Shown piece after piece: positions 16,925-60,702 of a stretch of DNA of 64,000 nucleotides. Origin of the DNA: Krasilnikoviella flava (GTDB taxonomy: Bacteria; Actinomycetota; Actinomycetes; Actinomycetales; Cellulomonadaceae). Positions within the stretch are counted from its first letter, which is position 1; each line of letters opens with the position of its first letter. A program made the position numbers and the translations under genes. The notes under the pieces are model-generated. The model saw nothing but the letters and a program-made list of their open reading frames with translations. It did not search any database and had not been told where the DNA came from. Where the stretch lies: positions 124,001 to 188,000 of the forward strand of contig NZ_FUZQ01000002.1 in assembly GCF_900167525.1 (NCBI RefSeq), in the 5' to 3' direction.

Positions 16925-17596
16925 TCAGGGCCGTGCGGAGAAGCGCTCCAGCAGGTCGGCGTGGCCGGAGCAGACCAGCAGGTCGTTGGCGCTCACACGG
17001 GTCTCGGGCGTGGCGTACTGGAACTCCACGCCGGGCGACTTCACGCCGATGACGGTGACGCCGTACCGCTTGCGGATGTCCGACTGGGCCAGCGTGAAGC
17101 CCTGCATCTCCTTCGGCGGGCGCATCTTGACGATGGTGAAGCCGTCCTCCACCTCGATGTAGTCGAGCATCTTGCCGCTCACGAGGTGCGCCACGCGGGA
17201 GCCGGCGTCGGCCTCCGGGTAGACGACGTGGTGGGCGCCGATGCGCGTGAGGATGCGGCCGTGCTCCGCCGAGATCGCCTTGGCCCAGATCTGCGGGGTG
17301 CCGAGGTCGACGAGGTTGGCGGTGATGAGCACCGACGCCTCGAGCTCGGTGCCGACTCCGACCACCGCCACGCCGAAGTCCTTGGCGCCCAGCTGGACGA
17401 GCGCCTCCGCCTCCGACGCGTCCGCCTCGACCAGGGGCAGGCGGCCGGACCACTGTGCGACGAGCTTCTCGTCGCGCTCGACGGCGAGCACGTCCTGGCC
17501 CAGCCGGTCCAGCGTCGTCGCGAGCGAGGATCCGAAGCGGCCGAGGCCGATCACGAGCACGCCCGCGTCGCGCGCGGGAGCCTTCTTGTCCGCCAC
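16925..17596 (-). CDS. potassium uptake regulatory subunit TrkA/KtrA
   Basis: 223-residue cytoplasmic gating subunit with one RCK_N domain (Rossmann VIGLGRFGSSLA near residue 15, nucleotide-binding) and one RCK_C domain (about 140-223), the KtrA-like single layout rather than the duplicated E. coli TrkA. It forms a ring under the TrkH/KtrB channel encoded just upstream (36 bases between). GTG start with AGGAGAA 5 bases before it. RCK_C domains of KtrA bind c-di-AMP in Firmicutes; whether this one does is unknown. Confidence 0.93.
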   Translation of the reverse strand: MADKKAPARDAGVLVIGLGRFGSSLATTLDRLGQDVLAVERDEKLVAQWSGRLPLVEADASEAEALVQLGAKDFGVAVVGVGTELEASVLITANLVDLGTPQIWAKAISAEHGRILTRIGAHHVVYPEADAGSRVAHLVSGKMLDYIEVEDGFTIVKMRPPKEMQGFTLAQSDIRKRYGVTVIGVKSPGVEFQYATPETRVSANDLLVCSGHADLLERFSARP

Positions 17597-20603: not shown

Positions 20604-21407
20604 TCAGCGGCCCTGGAGGCGGCGGCGGATGCTGCGCAGCACGAGCCCGGCCACCCAGGCGGCCCCCGCCCACGACGCGGTCTTCATGCCCCGCCCGGCC
20701 ACGCGCCGCCCGCGCCCGCGGAACTCGCGGATGGGCCAGCCGACATCCTTGGCGTGCCGGCGCAGGCGGGCGTCGGGGTTGATGGGGCACGGGTGCCCGA
20801 CGGTGCGCATCATCGGCAGGTCGTTGAGCGAGTCGCCGTACGCGTACGACGCGGACAGGTCGATGCCCTCCCGCTCCGCGAGCTCGCGCACGGCGGCGCC
20901 CTTCGCCTCGCCGTGCATGAGGTCTCCCACGAGCCGCCCGGTGTAGAAGCCGCCCGAGTGCTCGCCGATCGTGCCGAGGCAGCCCGTGGCGCCGAGGCGG
21001 CGTGCGATGAGGCTGCCGATCTCGACCGGCGTGGCGGTCACGAGCCACACCTGGTCGCCGGCGGCCAGGTGCTCGTCGAGCAGCCGCTTGGTGCCGGGGA
21101 AGATCCGCAGCTCGAGCACGGTGTCGTACACGTCCTCGCCGACGGCGGTGATCTCCGCCACGGAGCGGCCCGCGATCAGCGACAGGGCCCGGCTGCGCAC
21201 GAGCTCGATCTGGGACCGGGACTCGCCGAACAGCAGGTACTTCGCCTGGATCAGCGCGAACCGCAGCAGGTCGCGGGTGCCGAAGAACCGGCGTTGGTAC
21301 AGGGCCCGCGCCAGGTGGAAGGCGCTGGCACCGCGGATGATGGTGTTGTCGACGTCGAAGAAGGCTGCGGCGCGCGCCGGCGGGGACGACTCGACGGGCG
21401 ACGGCAT
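20604..21407 (-). CDS. HAD-IB family phosphatase
   Basis: 267-residue haloacid-dehalogenase-type hydrolase. Motif I is AAFFDVDNTII (about residues 14-24), motif II VTATP, and motif III/IV YAYGDSLNDLPMM, the SerB-like type IB arrangement. Substrate unknown; relatives are often annotated as phosphoserine phosphatase-like. A hydrophobic basic C-terminal tail may touch the membrane. ATG at 21407 with TACAGT on the minus strand (21415-21420) 7 bases ahead; the longer open frame upstream overlaps the divergent glutaredoxin gene. Confidence 0.9.
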   Translation of the reverse strand: MPSPVESSPPARAAAFFDVDNTIIRGASAFHLARALYQRRFFGTRDLLRFALIQAKYLLFGESRSQIELVRSRALSLIAGRSVAEITAVGEDVYDTVLELRIFPGTKRLLDEHLAAGDQVWLVTATPVEIGSLIARRLGATGCLGTIGEHSGGFYTGRLVGDLMHGEAKGAAVRELAEREGIDLSASYAYGDSLNDLPMMRTVGHPCPINPDARLRRHAKDVGWPIREFRGRGRRVAGRGMKTASWAGAAWVAGLVLRSIRRRLQGR

Positions 21408-21414
21408 GCGGCCC

Positions 21415-21436
21415 ACTGTATCGGCGCGGATACGCT
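21415..21436. promoter_or_regulatory. back-to-back -10 elements of HAD gene and glutaredoxin gene
   Basis: Minus-strand TACAGT (21415-21420) serves the HAD gene and plus-strand TACGCT (21431-21436) the glutaredoxin gene. Each lies 6-7 bases before a start codon. The two promoters are so close that their polymerases must compete. Confidence 0.5.
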
Positions 21437-21442
21437 GTGCAG

Positions 21443-21715
21443 GTGAGCAGGCTGCAGGGATCCGCAGGTGAACCCCGGGTGCTGCTGTACACGCGTGTCG
21501 GATGCCACCTGTGCGAAGAGGCTCGGGCGGTGGTCGCGGACGTGTGCGGCGCGGCGGGGGAGGCATGGCGGGAGGTCGACATCGACGTCGACGGTCCCGG
21601 CGGTGACCTGGTGGGCAAGTACGGGGACTACGTGCCCGTCGTCGAGGTGGACGGCGTGCAGCAGGGCTTCTGGCGGGTCGACGGCGCGCGGCTCGCGCGG
21701 CGGCTGGCACGGTAG
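21443..21715 (+). CDS. glutaredoxin-like thioredoxin-fold protein
   Basis: 90 residues with the redox motif CHLC (VGCHLCEEA, about residue 23-31) in a thioredoxin fold, and the PVVEVDG strand that follows the cis-Pro. DUF836-type glutaredoxins of this size commonly sit beside rex in actinobacteria. GTG at 21443 is preferred to the in-frame GTG at 21437 since TACGCT ends 6 bases before it. Followed after 18 bases by rex, so they are probably cotranscribed. Confidence 0.87.
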   Translation: MSRLQGSAGEPRVLLYTRVGCHLCEEARAVVADVCGAAGEAWREVDIDVDGPGGDLVGKYGDYVPVVEVDGVQQGFWRVDGARLARRLAR

Positions 21716-21733
21716 CCCGGGGAGGACGACGGA

Positions 21734-22393
21734 GTGATCGAGCTCGGTGAGGCGACGGTGCCGGCCGCGACGGTGGCGCGGCTGCCCTACTATCTGCGCG
21801 CCCTGCGCGACCTGGCGGAGGCCGGCGTGACGACGACGTCGTCGTCGGAGCTGGCGGAGCGTTCCGGGGTGGGGTCGGCGCAGCTGCGCAAGGACCTGTC
21901 CTACCTCGGGTCGTTCGGGACGCGCGGGGTGGGATACGACGTGCAGTCGCTGGCGCAGTACATCGCGTCGGCGCTCGGACTGGGGTCGGAGCACCGCCTG
22001 GCGATCGTCGGCATCGGCAACCTGGGGCACGCGCTGGCGAACTACTCGGGGTACGCGGCCCGTGGCTTCCAGGTGGTGGCGCTGCTGGACGCGGACCCGC
22101 AGGTGGTGGGGGGCTCCGCGGCGGGGTTGACGATCGAGCACGTCGACGCGCTGGAGGACGTGCTGCCGCGTACCGGCGTGTCGATGGTGGTGCTCGCGAC
22201 GCCGGGCCCGGTGGCGCAGGCCATCGCCGAGCGGATCGTCGGGTGCGGGGTGCGGGAGATCCTGTCGTTCGCGCCCGTCGCGCTGCAGCTGCCCGACGAC
22301 GTCGTCGTGCGCTCCGTGGACGTGGCCGGCGAGCTGCAGATCCTGGCGTTCCACGCCGCGGCCCGGGCGGCGACGAACGGCACCCCGCGATAG
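21734..22393 (+). CDS. rex: redox-sensing transcriptional repressor Rex
   Basis: 219-residue dimeric repressor that senses the NADH/NAD+ ratio: it binds DNA when NADH is low and leaves when NADH rises. N-terminal winged helix (PAATVARLPYYLRALRDLAE, then SAQLRKDLSYLG for recognition) and C-terminal Rossmann domain with GIGNLGHALANY. GTG start with GGAGGAC 8 bases upstream, consistent with translation from the glutaredoxin transcript. A matching operator lies before menJ-nuo at 53815-53832. hemA, the usual next gene in actinobacteria, is not here. Confidence 0.97.
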   Translation: MIELGEATVPAATVARLPYYLRALRDLAEAGVTTTSSSELAERSGVGSAQLRKDLSYLGSFGTRGVGYDVQSLAQYIASALGLGSEHRLAIVGIGNLGHALANYSGYAARGFQVVALLDADPQVVGGSAAGLTIEHVDALEDVLPRTGVSMVVLATPGPVAQAIAERIVGCGVREILSFAPVALQLPDDVVVRSVDVAGELQILAFHAAARAATNGTPR

Positions 22394-31657: not shown

Positions 31658-32770
31658 ATGCCCACGATGCCCGGAGGCACGACCCGGGGCGCACGCGCCG
31701 GGGCCGTCGCCGCGCTCGTCGCGGTCGCCCTGCTGGCCACGGCCGCGTGCGGCGTCGGCGAGCCGGCCGCCCCGCCCACCGTGACCGCGGCCCCGGACGT
31801 GGCGGTGCCCAAGGCGGCACCGCCCGATCCCGTGAAGCCGCAGCCGAAGCCCAAGCCCATGCCCGTGGTGTGGCCGCTCAACGGCAAGCCGACCGGGACG
31901 AAGAAGGTCCCGGCCCGGCCCGCCGTCGCGGTGAAGATCGAGAACTCCGTGCAGGCGCGCCCGCAGTCCGGGCTGCAGCAGGCGGACATCGTCTGGGAGC
32001 AGGTGGTCGAGGGCGGCATCTCGCGGTACGTCGCCGTGTACCAGTCGAAGCTGCCCGGCACCGTCGGGCCGGTCCGGTCGGTGCGCCCCATGGACCCGGC
32101 GATCGTCGCCCCGATGCGCGGCATCCTCGCGTACTCCGGTGGGCAGCCGCCGTTCATCCGCGCGGTGGGGAAGGCGAAGGTCCAGTCCGTGACCATGGAC
32201 GGCGGCGACCCCGGCTTCCGGCGCAGCGGCGACCGCGCCGCCCCGCACAACGTCTACGGGTCGGTGAGGTCGTTCGCGAAACAGGCCAGCAAGAGCCGCG
32301 CGACGCCGCCGCCCGCGCAGTTCTCCTACGCTGCCAAGGTCGGGCAGGGTTCCGCCGCGAAGAACGACCGCGAGGGCCACGTCGCGGACGTCCGGCTCTC
32401 CCCGGCGCAGCGCACCGTGTGGCGGTGGAAGGCGAAGACCAAGACCTACGCCCGCTACGACGGCTCGACGCCCTCGATCTCCTCCGGGAGCCAGCTGCGT
32501 GCTCGGAACGTGCTGGTCCTGTCCGTGAAGATGAAGAACACGAAGTACCGCGACCCGAGCGGTGCACCCGTGCCCGAGACGCAGATGGTCGGCTCGGGCA
32601 AGGGCGTGCTGCTCACCCGGGGCAAGGCGCTCAACGTCAGCTGGTCCAAGAAGAAGACGGGCAAGAAGATCGTGCTCACGACCCGGGGCGGCGACCCGGT
32701 GAGCCTCGACCCGGGCAACCTGTGGGTCGAGCTCGTGCCACGCGACAGCGGGTCGTGGCGGGTGCGGTGA
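31658..32770 (+). CDS. DUF3048 lipoprotein, copy 1
   Basis: 370 residues. A lipoprotein signal (LLATAACG) puts it on the outer face of the membrane, followed by a Pro/Lys-rich linker and the two-part DUF3048 domain (YerB-like) with AVKIENSVQARPQSGL, VRPMDP, ILAYSGGQPPF and RAAPHNVY. Function unknown; a cell-wall role is often assumed. ATG at 31658 with a GAGGAGGA box 12-19 bases upstream. Tandem paralogue of the next gene and divergent from menE. Confidence 0.88.
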   Translation: MPTMPGGTTRGARAGAVAALVAVALLATAACGVGEPAAPPTVTAAPDVAVPKAAPPDPVKPQPKPKPMPVVWPLNGKPTGTKKVPARPAVAVKIENSVQARPQSGLQQADIVWEQVVEGGISRYVAVYQSKLPGTVGPVRSVRPMDPAIVAPMRGILAYSGGQPPFIRAVGKAKVQSVTMDGGDPGFRRSGDRAAPHNVYGSVRSFAKQASKSRATPPPAQFSYAAKVGQGSAAKNDREGHVADVRLSPAQRTVWRWKAKTKTYARYDGSTPSISSGSQLRARNVLVLSVKMKNTKYRDPSGAPVPETQMVGSGKGVLLTRGKALNVSWSKKKTGKKIVLTTRGGDPVSLDPGNLWVELVPRDSGSWRVR

Positions 32771-32846
32771 CGCCGGATCGTGACGCTCCCGGCATACGGT
32801 GACCGTGTGTGATCGCGCGCACGACCCGCCATCCCGGGAGGACCGC

Positions 32847-33932
32847 ATGACCGCAACGCCCCGCCTGCCCCGCCCGCCCCGCGCCCGCAGCGCCGTCGTC
32901 CGGGGCGTCGTCGTCCTGGCGCTCGGCGCGGTCGTCACGCTCGGTGCGTGCTCGTCGGGCGGGTCGCCCTCGCCGACGGTCACCCCGAGCAGCACGGCGG
33001 ACAAGGGCGCGCCGCCGCAGCCCGCGGTGCCCTCGGCGTGGCCCCTCACCGGGGTGCCGTCGGACGACGTGGCCGCTCGTCCGGCGCTCGCCGTGAAGAT
33101 CGAGAACGCGCCCGAGGCGCGGCCGCAGACCGGGCTCGAGGACGCCGACCTGGTGTGGGAGGAGGTCGTCGAGGGCGGCATCACGCGGTTCGTCGCCGTG
33201 TACCACTCGCAGGTGCCGAAGGCCGTCGAGCCCGTGCGCTCCGTGCGGCCCATGGATCCGGACGTCGTGGCGCCGCTCGGCGGCATCCTCGCCTACTCCG
33301 GCGGCCAGACGCCGTTCATCACGGCGGTGGAGAAGTCCGGCACCCAGTCGGTGATCATGGACCGCGGCGACGCGGGCTTCTCCCGCGACCCGGACCGTGC
33401 CGCGCCGCACAACGTCGTCGGCGACCCGAAGGCGTTCCTCGACCAGGCCGACGGCGACCGCACCGTGCCGCCGCCCGCCCAGTTCCGCTACGCCGGCGAG
33501 GCGGGGGCGGGCACCGCCGGCACGGACGGGAAGAAGGCGGCCACGGTCGACGTGACGCTCAGCCCGGCGCAGAGAAGCGTCTGGGACTGGTCGGGCAAGG
33601 AGAAGCAGTGGCAGCGCAGCGAGGGCTCCCGGGAGTCCGTCTCGTCGTCGGGGGCGCGGCACGCCGCCACCAACGTGCTCGTCCTGTCGGTGGACGTGGT
33701 CAAGACGAAGTACAAGGACCCGGCCGGGTCCCCGGTCCCCAAGACCGAGCTGGTCGGGAAGGGCAAGGGCGTGCTGGCGTCGGCGGGGAAGACCGTCCCG
33801 GTGCGGTGGTCGAAGAAGGACCAGGCGTCTCTGGTCGAGCTGACCCGTGACGGCGAGCCCGTCGAGCTCGACCCCGGGAGCACCTGGATCGAGCTCGTGC
33901 CGAAGGACAGCGGGAGCTGGAAGGTCTCCTGA
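32847..33932 (+). CDS. DUF3048 lipoprotein, copy 2
   Basis: 361 residues with lipobox TLGACS and the same DUF3048 layout as copy 1; the blocks EVVEGGITRFVAVYHSQ, PVRSVRPMDPDVVAP and GILAYSGGQ are nearly identical, so the pair arose by tandem duplication. GGGAGG 7 bases before the ATG at 32847 fixes the start; an in-frame ATG does not precede it within the promoter. Converges on the propeller genes. Confidence 0.88.
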   Translation: MTATPRLPRPPRARSAVVRGVVVLALGAVVTLGACSSGGSPSPTVTPSSTADKGAPPQPAVPSAWPLTGVPSDDVAARPALAVKIENAPEARPQTGLEDADLVWEEVVEGGITRFVAVYHSQVPKAVEPVRSVRPMDPDVVAPLGGILAYSGGQTPFITAVEKSGTQSVIMDRGDAGFSRDPDRAAPHNVVGDPKAFLDQADGDRTVPPPAQFRYAGEAGAGTAGTDGKKAATVDVTLSPAQRSVWDWSGKEKQWQRSEGSRESVSSSGARHAATNVLVLSVDVVKTKYKDPAGSPVPKTELVGKGKGVLASAGKTVPVRWSKKDQASLVELTRDGEPVELDPGSTWIELVPKDSGSWKVS

Positions 33933-50966: not shown

Positions 50967-51135
50967 CGGTGCCTCCTGGCGGCGCCCGGGGAGCGGCGCC
51001 GCGTCGCGCCGGCTCAGTGGGCCTGTCTGCCGATCCAGGGAGCGACGGCGCCGCGCCGTCCTCGCTCCAGGACGGTAGGCGAGCGGCGCTCGGTGCGTCA
51101 ACGGTGCGTCGACGGTGCGTGCGACGATGACGTCC

Positions 51136-51831
51136 ATGTCCCGCGCCAGCCTGGAGAAGAAGCCCGCCGAGGTCGCGTCGATGTTCGACGGGATCGCCAA
51201 GCGCTACGACCTCGTCAACGACCTCGTCTCCCTCGGCCAGGACCGGCGCTGGCGACGGGCCGTGGTCGACGCCGTCGCGGCCGTCCCCGGCGAGCGGGTG
51301 CTCGACCTCGCCGCGGGCACCGGCACGTCCAGCGAGCCCTTCGTGGACGACGGTGCCCTGGTGGTGCCGTCCGACTTCAGCCTCGGCATGCTGGCCGTGG
51401 GCAAGGAGCGCCGGCCCGACCTGTCCTTCGTCGCCGGAGATGCCACCCGGCTCCCGTTCGCCGACGGCGTCTTCGACGCGGTGACCATCAGCTTCGGGCT
51501 GCGCAACGTGGTGGACACCGACGCCGCGCTGCGCGAGATGCTGCGGGTGGTGCGGCCCGGCGGCAGGGTCGCGATCTGCGAGTTCTCCACCCCCACGTGG
51601 GCGCCGTTCCGCACCGTGTACATGGAGTACCTCATGCGCGCGCTGCCGGTGGTGGCCGGGGCGGTGACGCGCGACCGCGGGTCCTACGACTACCTCGCCG
51701 AGTCCATCCGCAGCTGGCCGGACCAGGCCGCGCTCGGCCGCCGGCTGCTCGACGCCGGCTGGGACCGGGTGTCCTACCGCAACCTCACCGGCGGCATCGT
51801 CGCGCTGCACCGGGCGGTCCGCCCGGCCTGA
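51136..51831 (+). CDS. menG: demethylmenaquinone methyltransferase
   Basis: Last core step of menaquinone synthesis: C-methylation of demethylmenaquinone with S-adenosylmethionine. 231 residues. SAM-binding [12 protein letters not shown], UbiE/MenG signatures [18 protein letters not shown] and [14 protein letters not shown]. Three in-frame starts exist (51115, 51127, 51136); the last is chosen because the protein then begins [13 protein letters not shown] as usual for the family, and GACGAT lies 7 bases before it. Divergent from the deaminase. Confidence 0.94.
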
Positions 51832-51862
51832 GCGCCGCCCTCCCCGCGTCCGACCTCGGTCT

Positions 51863-51891
51863 TTGACCCGAGCGGTCGTGCGTCGTATCGT
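51863..51891 (+). promoter_or_regulatory. promoter of the MFS transporter gene
   Basis: TTGACC (51863-51868), 17-base spacer, TATCGT (51886-51891): the best consensus-like sigma-70 promoter in the window, with a start near 51898. Confidence 0.7.
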
Positions 51892-51900
51892 CGACTCGTC

Positions 51901-51925
51901 CTGAAACGATTCAACGTAGATTCAG
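51901..51925 (+). promoter_or_regulatory. LacI-type operator over the MFS transcription start
   Basis: TGAAACGATTCA (51902-51913) is a near-perfect dyad with the central CG of LacI-family sites; an outer pair CTGAA (51901-51905) / TTCAG (51921-51925) frames it. It lies just downstream of the -10, a repression position. Confidence 0.55.
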
Positions 51926-51975
51926 GGCGCACCGATGCGCCAAGCACGACGACGTACGCAGGGAAGGTCAGGTCG

Positions 51976-53307
51976 ATGACGACACCACACAGCGCGATGC
52001 GCCCGACGCCGGGCGGCGGCACCCGCCTGCACGGCTACCGGGCGACCGTCGCGGTCGCGATGTCCAACTACATCGAGGCGGGCTCGATCATCGCGCTCGC
52101 CACCAGCCTCACGCTCTGGCAGGAGCACTTCGGGCTCAGCAACCTCGCCGTCGGGCTCGCGGCCGCGCTCAGCGCCAACGCTTTCGGTGCCGCCGTGGGC
52201 GCCATGATCGGCGGGCCGCTGGGCGACCGGTACGGCCGCAAGTTCATCTATACCTACGACCTGCTGCTGTACATGCTCGGCACGGCGTTCATCGTGTTCG
52301 CCGGCGCCCCGTGGATGCTGTTCGTCGGCATCGTGCTCACCGGCATCGCCGTCGGCGCGGGCGTGCCCGTCGCGTGGACGTACATCGCCGAGGAGGCGCC
52401 CGACGACCAGCGGGCCCGGCACGTCGGCACGGCGCAGCTCGCCTGGTCGCTCGGGCCGCTCGTGGGCTTCGTGCTCGCGACGGCGCTCGTGCCGCTCGGC
52501 CTCCTCGGCAGCCGCATCATCTTCGCCCACCTGTTCGTCATCGCGTTCGTCACCTGGTGGGTGCGTCGCGGCCTCGCCGAGTCGGACGTCTGGAAGGAGT
52601 CGAACGCCAAGCAGGTCGCCCTCGGCCGCAAGCGGCGCGGCTTCCGGGAGCTGATCTCGCACCCGCAGAACGTCAAGGCGCTGCTGTTCCTCGTCGGCGT
52701 CTACGCCCTGTGGAACACGGTCGCCGGGCAGGCCGGCATCTTCATGCCCCGGGTCTACCAGACGGCGGGGGTCGAGAGCGCCGTCGCGCAGAACCTCCTG
52801 CAGGTGCTGGTGTGGGGCCTGACCTCCGCGGCCACCTTCTGGGGGTTCATGAAGTACGGCGACCGGGTGAGCCGCCGGCTGCTGTACGGCATCGGCGCCT
52901 TGATGGCCGTCGCGGCGTGGATGATCCTCGCCTTCGTGCCGCACGTCTCGATGCCGCTGCTCATCGCGTACGCCGTCCTGTGGGGCGTGTCCGCCGGCAT
53001 CGGTGCCCAGGCGTTCTACGCGCTGTGGACGGCGGAGCTGTTCGCGACCGCCTACCGCGCGTCGGCCCAGGGCGTGCTGTTCTTCGTGGCGCGCATCGCC
53101 GTCGGGCTGCTGAGCTACCTCTTCCCGACCATGCTCGCGAACCAGGGCGTGCCCTTCGTCGGCGGGATCATGGTCGCGCTGCTCGTCGCGTCGCTGGTGA
53201 TCGGCGTCCTCTGGACTCCCGACACCGCGGGCAAGAGCCTCAAGGAGATCGAGCGGGAGCGCTACGGCGCCGACCTCGACGACGCCGAGGTGCCCGCGGC
53301 GCGCTGA
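51976..53307 (+). CDS. MFS transporter
   Basis: 443 residues, twelve predicted helices, major facilitator superfamily. The loop 2-3 motif is GGPLGDRYGRKFIYTYD and a mirrored FMKYGDRVSRRLLYG follows helix 8. The sugar/metabolite:proton symporter type is likely, as is carbohydrate control from the LacI-like operator in front; no sugar-degrading genes are nearby to name the substrate. ATG at 51976 is 11 bases after a GGGAAGG box (51959-51965). Confidence 0.88.
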   Translation: MTTPHSAMRPTPGGGTRLHGYRATVAVAMSNYIEAGSIIALATSLTLWQEHFGLSNLAVGLAAALSANAFGAAVGAMIGGPLGDRYGRKFIYTYDLLLYMLGTAFIVFAGAPWMLFVGIVLTGIAVGAGVPVAWTYIAEEAPDDQRARHVGTAQLAWSLGPLVGFVLATALVPLGLLGSRIIFAHLFVIAFVTWWVRRGLAESDVWKESNAKQVALGRKRRGFRELISHPQNVKALLFLVGVYALWNTVAGQAGIFMPRVYQTAGVESAVAQNLLQVLVWGLTSAATFWGFMKYGDRVSRRLLYGIGALMAVAAWMILAFVPHVSMPLLIAYAVLWGVSAGIGAQAFYALWTAELFATAYRASAQGVLFFVARIAVGLLSYLFPTMLANQGVPFVGGIMVALLVASLVIGVLWTPDTAGKSLKEIERERYGADLDDAEVPAAR

Positions 53308-53734: not shown

Positions 53735-53814
53735 GCGACGGCCCGTCCCCCGGGCAAGGAAGGGTTGCCTTCCTACACAGCGCCGCCCGAACGTGACTAG
53801 AGTGCTGGCAAGAG

Positions 53815-53832
53815 TTGTGATGAGGTTCACAA
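53815..53832 (+). promoter_or_regulatory. Rex operator before menJ-nuo
   Basis: TTGTGATGAGGTTCACAA fits the actinobacterial Rex consensus TTGTGAA-N4-TTCACAA with perfect outer half sites TTGTGA/TCACAA. It sits 12 bases downstream of a TAGAGT -10 (53798-53803), so a bound repressor would cover the transcription start. Rex itself is encoded at 21734-22393. Confidence 0.85.
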
Positions 53833-53881: not shown

Positions 53882-55195
53882 GTGCGGTCAGGTCGCTTGG
53901 ACGACGCCGACGTCATCGTCGTGGGCGCCGGCCCGGCGGGGACGTCCACGGCCCACTGGTGCGCTGCCGCGGGCCTCGACGTGCTCCTGCTCGACAAGGC
54001 GTCCTTCCCCCGTGACAAGGTCTGCGGGGACGGGCTCACCCCCCGCGCCGTCGGAGAGCTGGCCCGCATGGGGCTCGGCACGCGGGAGGACGACGGGTGG
54101 ATCCGCAACGAGGGTCTGCGGGTGGTCGCCGGCGCCCGCTCGTGGGAGCTTCCCTGGCCCGACCTCGACTCCTTCCCCGGCTACGGCATGGCCCGCGCAC
54201 GGACGTCGCTCGACCACCGGCTCGCGCAGCACGCGCAGGCCGGCGGCGCCAAGCTGCTCGAGCGCACGAAGGTGACGGGGCCGCTGCTCGACGACCGCGA
54301 CGGGCGCGTCGTGGGGGTGCGGGCGCAGGCCCTCGACGGCCGCGGTCGTGCTGACGGCGCCGAGACGGTCTTCCGCGCGCCCGTCGTCGTGGCGGCCGAC
54401 GGTGTCTCCTCCCGCTTCGCGACGGCGCTCGGGATCACACGGCGCGACGACCGCCCGCTCGGCACCGCCGTGCGCACCTACTTCCGCACCGAGGGCACGT
54501 CCCGGCACCAGGACGCGTGGATGGAGTCGCACCTCGAGCTGTGGGACGGCGCCCCCGGCGCGTCGAACCTCCTGCCCGGCTACGGGTGGATCTTCGCGCT
54601 CGGCGACGGCACAGCCAACGTGGGCCTCGGCGCCGTGAGCTCGACGCCTGCGCGGCAGTCGGCGACCGGCCACGACTACCGCGGCATGATGCAGGCCTGG
54701 ATGCGCAACACCCCCGCCGAGTGGGGCTTCACGCCCGAGAACCAGGTGGGCCCGATCCGCGGCGCCGCGCTGCCGATGGGCTTCAACCGCCGCCCGCTGT
54801 ACCGCGACGGCGCGGTGCTGGTGGGCGACGCGGCCGGGATGGTCAGCCCCTTCAACGGCGAGGGCATCGCCTACGCCCTGCAGGCGGGCCGGGTCGCCGC
54901 CGATGCGATCGCCCAGGCGCGCACCCGCACCACGGACGACGCGCGGGAGCGCACGCTCGCCTCCTACGCGGACCGGATGCGGGCCGACCTGGGCGGCTAC
55001 TACACGTTGGGCCGCTGGTTCGTGCGGCTCATCGAGCACCCGCAGATCATGCGGATCTGCGTGCGGTACGGGCTGCCGCGGCCGGTGGTCATGCGGTTCG
55101 TGCTCAAGCTGCTCTCCGACTGCTACGAGCCGCGGGGCGGCGACTGGGTGGACCGGGTCGTCGCGGGGCTCACCAGGGTGGTCCCGGCGGCATGA
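53882..55195 (+). CDS. menJ: menaquinone isoprenyl reductase, geranylgeranyl reductase family
   Basis: 437-residue flavoprotein. FAD-binding VIVVGAGPAGTSTAHW (about residues 10-25), FPRDKVCGDGLTPRAV and the second FAD motif VGDAAGMVSPFNGEGIAYAL match mycobacterial MenJ, which saturates one double bond of the menaquinone side chain. A generic archaeal-lipid-type reductase is the alternative. GTG at 53882; its transcript starts near 53810, over the Rex site. Its stop overlaps a 27-residue ORF that overlaps nuoA, so it heads the complex I operon. Confidence 0.88.
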   Translation: MRSGRLDDADVIVVGAGPAGTSTAHWCAAAGLDVLLLDKASFPRDKVCGDGLTPRAVGELARMGLGTREDDGWIRNEGLRVVAGARSWELPWPDLDSFPGYGMARARTSLDHRLAQHAQAGGAKLLERTKVTGPLLDDRDGRVVGVRAQALDGRGRADGAETVFRAPVVVAADGVSSRFATALGITRRDDRPLGTAVRTYFRTEGTSRHQDAWMESHLELWDGAPGASNLLPGYGWIFALGDGTANVGLGAVSSTPARQSATGHDYRGMMQAWMRNTPAEWGFTPENQVGPIRGAALPMGFNRRPLYRDGAVLVGDAAGMVSPFNGEGIAYALQAGRVAADAIAQARTRTTDDARERTLASYADRMRADLGGYYTLGRWFVRLIEHPQIMRICVRYGLPRPVVMRFVLKLLSDCYEPRGGDWVDRVVAGLTRVVPAA

Positions 55196-55275
55196 GCGCA
55201 AACGAGCACAAGGGAGTGGTCGAGATGCACGAGGTCGAGATGGACGCGGCCGTGCGGACGGGGGAGTCGCGATGA
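55192..55275 (+). CDS. 27-residue ORF coupling menJ to nuoA
   Basis: The ATG overlaps the menJ stop (ATGA) and its TGA overlaps the nuoA ATG, so ribosomes can pass from menJ through it into nuoA. The peptide is acidic (MSANEHKGVVEMHEVEMDA...). Inside it GGGGGAG-like purines act as the nuoA ribosome binding site. It may be only a coupling device; a real small protein is possible. Confidence 0.45.
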   Translation: MSANEHKGVVEMHEVEMDAAVRTGESR

Positions 55276-55634
55276 CCAACCCGTACGTGCCGGTCCTCAT
55301 GCTCATGGGCGTGGCCCTGGTGCTCGCCGTGGGCGGCGTGGCGGCGAGCGCCGTCATCGGCCCCAAGCGCTACAACCGGGCCAAGCTCGACGCCTACGAG
55401 TGCGGCATCGAGCCGACGCCGCACGCGGTCGGCGGCGGCCGGCTCCCCGTGAAGTACTACCTGGTCGCGATGACGTTCATCGTCTTCGACATCGAGGTGG
55501 TCTTCCTCTACCCGTGGGCGGTGGACTTCGCGGCGCTCGCCGGCTTCGGCCTGGTCGCGATGCTCGCGTTCCTCGCCCTCATCACCGTGCCCTTCGTCTA
55601 CGAGTGGCGACGTGGGGGCCTCACCTGGGTCTAG
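55272..55634 (+). CDS. nuoA: NADH-quinone oxidoreductase subunit A
   Basis: 120 residues, three transmembrane helices, membrane arm of complex I next to the quinone site. The conserved loop [24 protein letters not shown] carries the Cys and Glu typical of NuoA, and helix 2 has the [14 protein letters not shown] signature. ATG at 55272, GGGGGAG about 4 bases ahead. First complex I gene of the operon. Confidence 0.96.
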
Positions 55635-55740
55635 CCCCGGGCGCACGACCAGCACCACCAGCACCACCCGGCACGACACGGCAAGACGGACGGCAACGGT
55701 GCCGAGAGATCCGGCACCGATGTTCAGGAGGGGAGGGGTC

Positions 55741-56292
55741 ATGGGCCTGGAAGAGGCTCCGTCGGGCTTCCTGCTGACGACGATCGAGGACCTGGCGGGC
55801 TATCTGCGCAAGGCGTCCGTGTGGCCGGTGACGTTCGGGCTCGCGTGCTGCGCCATCGAGATGATGGCTGCCGGCGCGTCGCGGTTCGACCTGTCGCGGT
55901 TCGGCATGGAGGTGTTCCGGGCGTCGCCGCGGCAGGCGGACCTGATGATCGTCGCGGGCCGGGTGAGCCAGAAGATGGCGCCCGTCGTGCGGCAGGTCTA
56001 CGACCAGATGAGCGAGCCCAAGTGGGTGCTGTCCATGGGCGTGTGCGCGTCCAGCGGCGGCATGTTCAACAACTACGCGATCGTGCAGGGCGTCGACCAC
56101 ATCGTGCCCGTCGACATCTACCTGCCCGGCTGCCCGCCCCGCCCGGAGATGCTGATCAACGCGATCCTCGCGCTGCACCAGCAGATCCAGGACGCGCCGC
56201 TCGGCGTCAACCGCCGGGAGGCGGCCGCGGCCGCCGAGGCGGCGGCGCTCGACGCCACCCCGACGTTCGAGCTCAAGGGGCTGCTGCGATGA
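55741..56292 (+). CDS. nuoB: NADH-quinone oxidoreductase subunit B
   Basis: 183 residues; carries the last iron-sulfur cluster N2, which reduces menaquinone. Cluster ligands are visible: the adjacent Cys pair in [10 protein letters not shown], Cys in MGVCASSGG and Cys in [11 protein letters not shown]. Its C-terminal tail is Ala-rich. ATG at 55741 with AGGAGGGG 6 bases upstream; 106 bases separate it from nuoA, the largest gap in the operon. Its stop overlaps nuoC. Confidence 0.97.
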
Positions 56293-57101
56293 GCGACGGG
56301 ACGACGGCGGGCGGGTCCGCGTCGGACAAGCCCGTCCCGCAGCCCGAGGAGGTCCTCGGTCCCCGGTCCAGGGAGCTCGTGTCCGGCAGCGAGCAGGCCG
56401 GCCGCGGCGGACGCGGGCCGGAGGTCGTCGAGGTGCGCCGGGGCATGTTCGGCGTGCAGGGCTCCGGCGACACGTCGGGCTACGGCGGGCTGGTGCAGCC
56501 GGTCGCGATGCCCGGCGCCGCGACCCGGCCCTACGGCGGCTGGTTCGACGAGGCGGTCGACGTGCTCGCCGAGGTGCTCGGCGAGGCGGGCGTCGCCTTC
56601 GCCGACGCGATCGAGAGGGTCGTCGTCGACCCGCAGCCCGACCCGCCCGACGTGCTCGCCGAGCTCACCCTGGACGTGGCGCGCGAGCACCTCGTCGCGG
56701 TCTGCCGGGCGCTGCGCGACGACCAGGACCTCCGCTTCGAGCTCAGCCTCGGCGTCTCGGGCGTGCACTACCCGCACGACGCGGGCCGCGAGCTGCACGC
56801 CGTCTACCACCTGACGTCGGTGACGCACGGCCGGCGCATCCGGCTGGAGGTCGCCGTCCCGGACGCCGACCCGCACGTGCCGTCGACCACGTCCGTGTAC
56901 CCCACCAACGACTGGCACGAGCGCGAGACCTGGGACTTCTTCGGGATCGTCTTCGACGACCACCCCGGCCTGGCGCGCATCGAGATGCCGGACGACTGGC
57001 CGGGGCACCCGCAGCGCAAGGACTACCCGCTCGGCGGCATCCCCGTGGAGTACAAGGGCGCCACGGTGCCGCCGCCGGACACGAGGAGGCAGTACTCGTG
57101 A
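56289..57101 (+). CDS. nuoC: NADH-quinone oxidoreductase subunit C
   Basis: 270 residues of the peripheral arm. An actinobacterial N-terminal extension (about 85 residues, polar) precedes the 30-kDa domain; the signature is [21 protein letters not shown] followed by [16 protein letters not shown] at 56289 overlaps the nuoB stop. Not fused to nuoD, unlike in E. coli. Confidence 0.95.
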
Positions 57102-57153
57102 CCTCACCCCACCCGATCCCCTGCTCCGCCCGCGCTCGAACGGGGGCCCCGAG

Positions 57154-58500
57154 ATGAGCACCGGAACCTTCAGTGCGACCCGACCGCCGACCGGCGACGA
57201 GTTCGACCCGGGCATCCCGGGCTTCGAGGCGTCCGGCGGGGACTGGGACGAGATCGCCCGCGAGGCCGTGGGCGAGGAGCGCATCGTCGTCAACATGGGC
57301 CCGCAGCACCCGTCCACCCACGGCGTGCTGCGACTCATGCTCGAGATCGACGGCGAGACGGTCACCGAGGCCCGGTGCGGCATCGGCTACCTGCACACCG
57401 GCATCGAGAAGAACATGGAGTTCCGCACCTGGACGCAGGGCACCACGTTCTGCACCCGGATGGACTACCTGGCGCCGCTCTTCCAGGAGTCGGCGTACTG
57501 CCTCGCCACGGAGCGGCTGCTCGGCATCACGGACGACGTGCCCGAGCGGGCGTCGATCATCCGGGTGCTGATGATGGAGCTCAACCGGGTGGCGTCCCAC
57601 CTCGTGTGCCTGGGGACGGGCGGCAACGAGATGGGCGCGACGACGGTCATGACCATCGGCTTCACCGCCCGCGAGGAGATCCTGCGGCTGTTCGAGGCCG
57701 TGACCGGGCTGCGCATGAACCATGCGTACGTGCGGCCGGGCGGCGTCGCGCAGGACGTCCCGGACGGCTTCGTGGACCAGGTGCGGGCGGCTATGCCGAA
57801 GGTCCGGCACTACCTCGGCCAGCTCGGCGACCTCATGCTCGCCAACCCGATCTTCAAGGCCCGGCTCACGGACGTCGGGGTGCTCAACCTCGCGGGCTGC
57901 ATGGCGTTGGGCGTCACGGGCCCGGTGCTGCGCTCGGCCGGGCTGCCCTACGACGTGCGCAAGGCGTTCCCGTACTCGGGCTACGAGACGTACGACTTCG
58001 ACGTCCCGACGTCGACCGACGCGGACTGCTACTCCCGCGTGGTGCTGCGGATCGAGGAGTGCTACCAGTCGCTGCGGATCGTGGAGCAGGCCCTCGCGCG
58101 GCTCGAGGACACCGCCGGGGCGGCGGTCATGGTGGCGGACAAGAAGATCGCGTGGCCGGCCCAGCTCGCCGTCGGTGCCGACGGCCAGGGCAACTCGCTG
58201 GACCACATCCGTCAGATCATGGGCACCTCGATGGAGGCCCTGATCCACCACTTCAAGCTCGTCACCGAGGGCTTCCGCGTGCCTGCCGGGCAGGTCTGGC
58301 AGACGGTCGAGCACCCCCGCGGCGAGCTCGGCGTGCACGCGGTGTCCGACGGCGGCACCAAGCCGTACCGGGCGCACTTCCGCGACCCGTCGTTCAACAA
58401 CCTCCAGGCCGTGTCGGTGATGTGCGAGGGCGGCCAGGTGGCCGACGTCGTGGTCGCCGTCGCGTCGCTGGACCCCGTGCTGGGAGGGGTGGACCGATGA
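57154..58500 (+). CDS. nuoD: NADH-quinone oxidoreductase subunit D
   Basis: 448 residues, 49-kDa subunit forming the quinone pocket with NuoB. The quinone-site segment [15 protein letters not shown] is at about 49-63 and the conserved C-terminal [13 protein letters not shown] is present. It lacks the hydrogenase NiFe ligands, as expected. ATG at 57154, 52 bases after nuoC; its stop overlaps nuoE (ATGA). Confidence 0.97.
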
Positions 58501-59375
58501 CGGCAGAACCCACGAGCGCGCGCTCGGCCACGCGGTACGACGCCGACACGCTGGCGGCGCTGACCGCGGACGCCGCGACGATCACGGCGCGCTACCCGGA
58601 CCCTCGCTCCGGGCTGCTGCCGATGCTGCACCTGGTGCAGTCGGTGGACGGGTACGTGAGCCGTGACGGCATCCTGTTCTGCGCCGAGCGGCTGGGGCTC
58701 ACGCCCGCCGAGGTGAGCGCCGTCGCGACCTTCTACACCCAGTACAAGCGGCACCCCAACGGCACCTACACCGTGGGCGTGTGCACCAACACGCTGTGCG
58801 CCGTCATGGGCGGCGACGCCGTCTTCGACGAGCTGAGCGAGCACCTCGGCGTCGGGCACGACGAGACCACCGAGGACGGCGCGATCACGCTCGAGCGCGT
58901 CGAGTGCAACGCGGCCTGCGACTACGCGCCGGTCGTGATGGTCAACTGGGAGTTCTTCGACAACCAGACGCCGGAGTCCGCCACCGACCTCGCCGACCGG
59001 CTGCGCGCCGGCGAGCAGGTGGCTCCCACCCGCGGGGCGTCGTCGGTGTGCTCGTTCCGGCAGATGAGCCGCGTGCTAGCCGGGTTCACGGACGGCCGCG
59101 CCGACGAGGGCGTGGGCGCGGGCGAGCCGACGCTCGCCGGGCTGCGGCTGGCGCGGGCCGCAGCGGCGGTCGACGGCGCGGCACCGTCGGTCGAGCCTGC
59201 CGAGACCACCGAGAGGGCCGCGACGGGCGCGAGCGCCGAGGTGCCGCCGCAGACCGGTGGCGAGCAGTCCAGCGCCGAGCGGGAGCCTGCGGCACCGGGG
59301 GACGAGAGCCCCGGGCGCTCGCCGTCCGGCGGCCCGGCGAATCCCGAGCCGGAGAAGGGTGGCAGCGATGACTGA
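58497..59375 (+). CDS. nuoE: NADH-quinone oxidoreductase subunit E with long repeat-derived tail
   Basis: 292 residues. The thioredoxin-like 24-kDa domain (about 1-190) holds the 2Fe-2S cluster N1a: Cys in [13 protein letters not shown] and in [11 protein letters not shown]. Beyond residue about 195 is a low-complexity tail of some 95 residues that normal NuoE lacks or has shorter; codons about 231-240 (59187-59216) come from half a GTCGAGCC-family palindrome. ATG at 58497; its stop overlaps nuoF by 8 bases. Confidence 0.94.
59187..59216 (+). repeat. half copy of the GTCGAGCC palindrome within nuoE
   Basis: GGTCGAGCCTGCCGAGACCA reads VEPAETT in frame. Only the left half of the palindrome is present. 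Compare the copy in nuoG at 63294. Confidence 0.6.
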
Positions 59376-60702
59376 CCTCATGCCCGTGCTCACGGACACG
59401 TGGGACGCCGACCGGTCGTGGAAGCTCGCCGCCTACGAGGCGGCCGGCGGGTACGCCGGGCTGCGCAAGGCGCTGGCGACCGAGCCGGGCGACCTCGTGC
59501 AGACCGTGAAGGCCTCGGGCCTGCGCGGCCGCGGCGGCGCGGGCTTCCCGACCGGCATGAAGTGGGGCTTCCTGCCCCCGCCGGACGGCGGCCCGCGCTA
59601 CCTCGTGGTCAACGCGGACGAGTCCGAGCCCGGCACCTGCAAGGACATCCCGCTGATGCTGGCGAGCCCGCAGCACCTGGTGGAGGGCATCGCGATCACG
59701 AGCTACGCCATCGGCTGCCACCACGCGTTCGTCTACGTCCGCGGGGAGGTGCTGCACGTGTACCGGCGGCTCCTGGCCGCGGTGCAGGAGGCGTACGACG
59801 CCGGATACCTCGGCAAGGACGTGCTCGGCTCCGGATTCGACCTGGACGTCACCGTGCACGCCGGCGCCGGCGCCTACATCTGCGGCGAGGAGACGGCGCT
59901 GCTCGACTCGCTCGAGGGCAAGCGCGGGCAGCCGCGGCTCAAGCCGCCGTTCCCCGCCGTCGCCGGCCTGTACGCGCGGCCCACGGTGGTGAACAACGTG
60001 GAGTCGATCGCGTCCGTGCCGGGCATCGTGGCCCACGGCGCGGACTGGTTCGCCGGCATGGGCACCGAGAAGTCGCAGGGGCACGGGCTGTTCTCCCTGT
60101 CCGGGCACGTCACCCGGCCGGGGCAGTACGAGGCGCCGCTGGGCATCACGCTGCGCGAGCTGCTCGACCTGGCCGGCGGCATCCGGGCCGGTCACGAGCT
60201 GAAGTTCTGGACGCCCGGCGGGTCGTCGACGCCGCTGTTCACGGCGGACCACCTCGACACCCCGCTCGACTACGAGTCGGTGGGCGCGGCCGGGTCGATG
60301 CTCGGCACCCGCGCCCTGCAGCTCTTCGACGACTCGACGTGCGTGGTCCGGGCGGTGAGCCGGTGGACCGACTTCTACGCGCACGAGTCGTGCGGCAAGT
60401 GCACGCCGTGCCGCGAGGGCACCTACTGGCTCAAGCAGGTGCTGCACCGCATCGAGGCCGGGCAGGGCGAGGAGCGCGACGTCGACCTGCTGCTCGACCT
60501 GTGCGACAACATCCTCGGCCGCGCGTTCTGCGCGCTCGGCGACGGCGCGACGTCGCCCGTCACGTCGAGCATCCAGCTCTTCCGCGACGAGTACCAGGCG
60601 CACATCGACGGCCACGGGTGCCCGTTCGACCCGAGCGCCAGCGCCCTGTTCCCGTACACCCCCAAGCAGTCGCCGGCGCTCGCCGGGGCGGGAGGTCACT
60701 GA
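59368..60702 (+). CDS. nuoF: NADH-quinone oxidoreductase subunit F
   Basis: 444 residues, NADH-oxidising subunit with FMN and cluster N3. NADH/FMN-binding [15 protein letters not shown] (about 52-66) and [14 protein letters not shown]; 4Fe-4S ligands in [12 protein letters not shown] and the later Cys of [13 protein letters not shown] at 59368 overlaps the end of nuoE; its stop overlaps the nuoG ATG (TGATG). Full length. Confidence 0.97.

Follow-up and report, generated by a model that had tools for sequence, protein, structure and literature searches.

A predicted Rex operator in front of a menJ-like gene and the nuo genes in Krasilnikoviella flava and other Actinomycetes

The window analysed here, a stretch of 64,000 nucleotides (64 kb) corresponding to 124001-188000 of contig C8 in the genome of Krasilnikoviella flava, carries a menJ-like gene followed on the same strand by the complex I genes nuoA to nuoF, and, farther upstream, the gene rex (Table 1). 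The palindrome TTGTGATGAGGTTCACAA lies upstream of menJ on the forward strand, separated by 49 bases from the GTG start codon (53882), and it matches the Rex consensus TTGTGAANNNNTTCACAA (TTGTGAA-N4-TTCACAA) at 13 of 14 positions; the single deviation, T for A, falls in the promoter-proximal half at position 7. The first-pass annotation had claimed a Rex site of the actinobacterial type at this place, and the claim was confirmed: in 40 simulated first-order Markov sequences of 64 kb each the maxima were 9 to 11 of 14, never higher, and when up to three mismatches were allowed TTGTGATGAGGTTCACAA had no further match in the window and 0 in 100 shuffles. The same annotation had reported no second good match, either in the window or in front of rex. 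Both statements hold, since the runner-up sites in the window score 10 (at 17134 and 63900), as expected by chance, and no operator was found upstream of rex, where the top score in the scanned stretch (21101-21760) is only 8 of 14.

The presence of rex in the window, also part of the earlier description, was borne out by a score of 315.4 bits against NF003992, well above the NCBIfam Rex cut-off of 226. Its product is the sole match to PF06971 in the genome, identifying it as the cognate Rex, and retains the stretch RKDLSY..GS.GTRGVGY of a Rex of known structure. The identity of the first gene under the operator is less firm. It had been called MenJ, the menaquinone reductase, and this remains the best-scoring name, as the top NCBIfam model of the product is the MenJ equivalog NF045655; however, the score of 236.5 bits lies far below the equivalog cut-off of 700, while the broader model TIGR02032 (geranylgeranyl reductase family) is matched with 225.7 bits against a cut-off of 158.8. 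By protein comparison the closest named relatives belong to Isoptericola, and the nearest solved structures by sequence are distant, the first being a digeranylgeranylglycerophospholipid reductase. The gene adjoins nuo and stands near menG (51115-51831), which supports MenJ as the likely name. In the region 51115-53307 a gene for a major facilitator family transporter lies between menG/ubiE and menJ, and elsewhere in the window (31658-33932) a DUF3048 gene pair stands in tandem. The region 55100-55700, with the gap between menJ and nuoA inside it, gave no match resembling a terminator or a promoter, and menJ and nuo are probably co-transcribed. The stretch from nuoB to nuoF was drawn from open frames, whose true starts are not fixed.

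Table 1. Features of the menJ-nuo region, the rex gene and the Rex-like sites of the genome (coordinates of the window unless a locus is named)
Feature	Position	Strand	Basis or remark
Second conserved inverted repeat, AAGG-gttg-CCTT	53760..53771	+	Centred about 44 bases before the putative transcription start
Possible weak -35 box, TACACA	53774..53779	+	18 bases before the -10 box; proposed from sequence and conservation in the genus
Putative -10 box, TAGAGT	53798..53803	+	Conserved at similar distance in relatives
Rex operator (ROP), predicted	53815..53832	+	13/14 consensus positions; kept in relatives
menJ-like gene, geranylgeranyl reductase family protein	53882..55195	+	First gene under the operator; TIGR02032 above cut-off; NF045655 best model, below cut-off
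nuoA	55272..55634	+	Reading frame and homology; 76 bases after menJ
nuoB, nuoC, nuoD, nuoE, nuoF	55612..60702	+	Pfam Oxidored_q6, Complex1_30kDa, Complex1_49kDa, 2Fe-2S_thioredx, Complex1_51K
rex	21734..22393	+	NF003992; PF06971 and PF02629; only one found in the genome
Genome site L001			Before alcohol dehydrogenase (adh)
Genome site L019			Before pyruvate formate-lyase (pflB)
Genome sites L020/L312 (two)			Before cydA, cytochrome bd oxidase subunit I
Genome site at menJ	53815..53832	+	The palindrome of the window
Genome site L002	L002:1501-1518 (G000:C5:307430-307447)		14/14; before a 165-residue membrane protein without family
Genome site L311			Weakest, 2 mismatches; before a gene resembling a LacI-type regulator by eye

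A scan of the promoter region with the sigma-70 consensus found nothing, missing both TAGAGT and TACACA, so that it is conservation only that argues for the -10 box. Concerning the relatives, a TANNNT motif starts 9-23 bases upstream of the operator in 101/101 family loci and 81/83 class loci that possess the site (the samples are described below), although the contrast with the in-gene control (0, 0 and 1 loci) is flattered by the GC-rich coding DNA of which the control consists. If TAGAGT is the -10 box, transcription would start near 53810 and the operator would extend from about +5 to +22, just downstream of that start; the first-pass annotation had put it over the likely transcription start. 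Farther upstream, the inverted repeat AAGG-N4-CCTT, with at least 7 of its 8 arm bases kept, was found 51-59 bases before the operator in 84 of the 101 family loci with the operator and in 2 of the 83 class loci; it is followed by CTACACA (the two together occupying 53760-53779) and is possibly the site of some activator. The repeat was compared by eye with the consensus of the iron box (IdeR/DtxR), whose spacing does not fit.

The first-pass annotation had proposed a genome-wide search for Rex sites, and this was carried out over the whole 4.85-Mb genome using the consensus with at most two mismatches and the reversed pattern as control. Seven sites at six loci were obtained, including those before adh, pflB and cydA, against 0 for the control. 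Alcohol dehydrogenase, formate-lyase and cytochrome bd oxidase have been listed as targets of Rex (PMC5355995). The pflB and cydA products of our genome stay below the NCBIfam cut-offs because the ends of the loci truncate the proteins. At L001 and L002 the site is flanked by divergent genes, either of which could be the target. The membrane protein gene at L002, whose product has no match in Pfam or NCBIfam, is a candidate new Rex target on the strength of its perfect site.

Conservation was evaluated in two samples. In the family, 121 genomes were drawn, 112 of which had a match to the menJ product, and 108 orthologues with upstream DNA were retained, leaving out a MenJ paralogue (L129) and four genomes whose menJ match was truncated, a fragment or weak (G101, G108, G062, G039). 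A score of at least 11 of 14 was found within 350 bases upstream of menJ in 101 of the 108 orthologues, the in-gene control reaching at most 9; nuoA follows menJ within 700 bases in 104/108, with a median gap of 68.5 bases. In a set of 80 named loci, partly overlapping with the 108, the site is present in 64 and nuoA after menJ in 79. The second sample comprised 101 loci of the class Actinomycetes outside the family, 28 returned by the search and 73 chosen from a list; a score of at least 12 was found before menJ in 83 of them (in-gene control at most 9), a fraction that is not that of a random sample because the 73 loci were hand-chosen from 271 genomes with a match. In this sample nuoA comes after menJ in 88/101 loci. 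From these data it is evident that the statement of the first-pass annotation that here MenJ stands first under the operator is true for this locus and is not special to the organism, the arrangement being common in the loci sampled. Twelve of the 18 class loci without the site belong to one large-genome group (family f25, genus g54), presumably Streptomyces, and in those twelve nuoA was not found within 900 bases downstream of menJ. Six class loci (L228, L233, L241, L249, L254, L267) possess a second Rex-like site, scoring 11-12 of 14, between menJ and nuoA, suggesting a separate nuo promoter there. In two loci, L113 and L114 (genomes G025 and G045, both of which possess rex), the operator has the symmetric form TTGTGC-CTTCGT-GCACAA, with C and G at positions 6 and 13, a possible case of co-change of Rex and its site.

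The two halves of the operator are not conserved to the same extent. Among 48 distinct family sites 55 mismatches fall in the promoter-side half and 10 in the gene-side half, and among 55 distinct class sites the corresponding numbers are 44 and 20; selection of both sets by score restricts how many mismatches occur, not the side on which they fall. Position 7 is A in only 35/101 family sites and in 83/83 class sites, while position 12 is T in 94 of the family sites and in 82/83 class sites; in the family, position 1 is T in 85 sites and position 18 is A in 95. Since the promoter-side half overlaps the putative start, constraints of transcription initiation may explain the imbalance. That it reflects a tuned, weaker operator would be a bolder reading than initiation constraints.

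The palindrome also contains, exactly, the core TGTGA-N6-TCACA of the consensus for the cAMP-dependent regulators CRP/GlxR, and because this core fits both regulators the dependence of the site on rex was evaluated, taking a match to PF06971 above its cut-off as presence of Rex. Rex was not found in nine menJ-bearing genomes of the family (G001, G010, G022, G026, G035, G052, G061, G081, G086). A site scoring at least 12 is present in 93/99 rex-bearing genomes versus 0/9 rex-less ones, and a site scoring at least 11 in 99/99 versus 2/9, six rex-bearing genomes scoring just 11, a score that the best two rex-less ones also reach; by Fisher's test the probability is about 1e-9 at either cut, computed on species that are not independent of each other. 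On a MenJ tree the distribution of rex-less genomes needs at least five changes, even when only well-supported branches are counted; the tree was built with a quick method on 107 of the 108 rows (G107 was left out), and two rex-less rows, G022 and G035, are long, the latter also with an unusual composition. Inspection by eye of six of the nine (G001, G022, G026, G061, G081, G086) still shows a -10-like TA...T box, with the operator gone or eroded. These six represent four of the five lineages that lost rex, and in them menG ends well before menJ (112-168 bases before it in G001 and G026, in which the -10-like box remains). In the other three (G010, G035, G052) menG coding DNA extends as far as menJ and leaves no promoter region at all.

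Outside the family the tie between the site and rex is looser: all of the 34 genomes tested for Rex were positive, including seven of the 18 siteless class genomes. A genome-wide count of loose Rex-like matches, in which coding and intergenic ones were not sorted, gave at least 64 in 15 rex-less and at least 142 in 23 rex-bearing genomes and did not separate the two groups.

CRP/GlxR was present in all 46 genomes tested, including the nine without rex, and the K. flava genome encodes one protein of clear CRP/GlxR type. It could be hypothesized that the site serves both proteins, with Rex repressing and CRP/GlxR providing a second input; the family version of the site largely satisfies both consensuses, and position 7 differs from A in 66/101 family sites versus 0/83 class sites. 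Against this, the site does not outlive the loss of rex, and activation by CRP would be unusual from a position downstream of the -10-like box; we consider such a dual reading improbable. Still less probable is that the palindrome is a CRP/GlxR site outright. The exact fit to the core, the presence of such a protein in the genome and the freedom of position 7 in the family would all be expected of a CRP site; nevertheless, none of the nine rex-less genomes holds a site of at least 12, although all of them have kept CRP/GlxR. The genome contains only six occurrences of TGTGA-N6-TCACA, and the three with the outer T and A are those at menJ, adh and L002. Moreover, the prevailing T at positions 1 and 12 and A at position 18 of the family sites are needless for a CRP site, and in the class the near-invariant A at position 7 and T at position 12 argue against it too. 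CRP/GlxR was thus rejected as the main reader: from sequence comparison, the predicted site follows Rex, not CRP, and the separate losses of rex accompanied by erosion of the site serve as a clean natural control in assigning a motif to which CRP has an equal claim. That the palindrome is a functionless relic or a product of chance is scarcely credible, in spite of the 18/101 class loci that are devoid of it, given a conservation that goes far beyond its variable centre, a limited distance from the -10-like box and its disappearance along with rex in five lineages or more.

We conclude that the palindrome is very probably the operator through which the NADH/NAD+-sensing repressor Rex controls menJ-nuo, as the first-pass annotation had proposed. 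The comparative side of that proposal is strongly supported by the set of sites in the genome, by conservation in family and class and by loss together with rex.

Control of nuo by Rex in Streptomyces, which had been taken as known, is indeed published for nuoA1-N1 of S. avermitilis, where Rex represses the complex I genes and binds the nuoA1 promoter; binding was demonstrated by gel shift and chromatin immunoprecipitation, and footprinting is described (PMC5355995). The consensus used there is the same TTGTGAANNNNTTCACAA, and binding there tolerates two or three mismatches; the atpI site, like ours, has T at position 7 (PMC5355995). The two systems differ in that the nuoA1 site, ATGTGAAGCAGGTCACAA, lies 147 bases before nuoA1, and the passages on nuoA1 name no menJ (PMC5355995). 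In K. flava the operator has menJ as its first gene. The placement just downstream of the start, predicted for K. flava, resembles that at S. avermitilis cydA1, where the protected region goes from -3 to +25, although the target of that operator is a cytochrome bd oxidase (PMC5355995). A geranylgeranyl reductase gene adjoining nuo, together with menaquinone genes, is found also in the ggr-nuo locus of Actinomyces oris; that study, however, concerns pilus assembly (PMC5478893).

Among open-licence full texts, no paper joining Rex with menJ or with a geranylgeranyl reductase gene was found. Older works on Rex (one on S. coelicolor from 2003 and a comparative survey from 2012) may list actinobacterial targets. 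In the main text of the paper on S. spinosa Rex the terms nuo, geranylgeranyl and menaquinone are absent (PMC4172946). One text containing both Rex and MenJ was discarded as a link between the two, since the Rex in it is a resin (PMC6461227). What is new, on the evidence of the sampled loci, is the predicted target: a menJ-like gene is first under the putative Rex operator in most of them. By this sample, it is the Streptomyces-like genomes that seem exceptional, and elsewhere a quinone-modifying gene mostly stands first under the same operator.

According to the model that we propose, Rex, encoded 32 kb away, would together with NAD+ cover positions +5 to +22 or so of the menJ-nuo transcription unit, blocking transcription. 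When NADH rises Rex would leave and the operon would be made, yielding first the MenJ-like reductase and then complex I, which re-oxidises NADH. Binding of Rex to the site is expected, and its action would be repression, by analogy with Rex elsewhere; that Rex control also affects menaquinone saturation is a good hypothesis. More tentatively, and with more doubt than confidence, it could be supposed that in most of the class Actinomycetes a single Rex operator makes both complex I and the degree to which the menaquinone side chain is saturated depend on the NADH/NAD+ ratio, and that its halves are deliberately unequal, the gene-side one kept and the promoter-side one relaxed, which would give it less strength than the adh and cyd sites have and let it open first as NADH rises.

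If the coupling is true, the cell would alter its quinone pool chemically in step with the enzyme supplying that pool. With a quinone-modifying gene first under the operator in most loci sampled, the questions of why actinobacteria saturate menaquinone, and whether they adjust this saturation, become directly testable.
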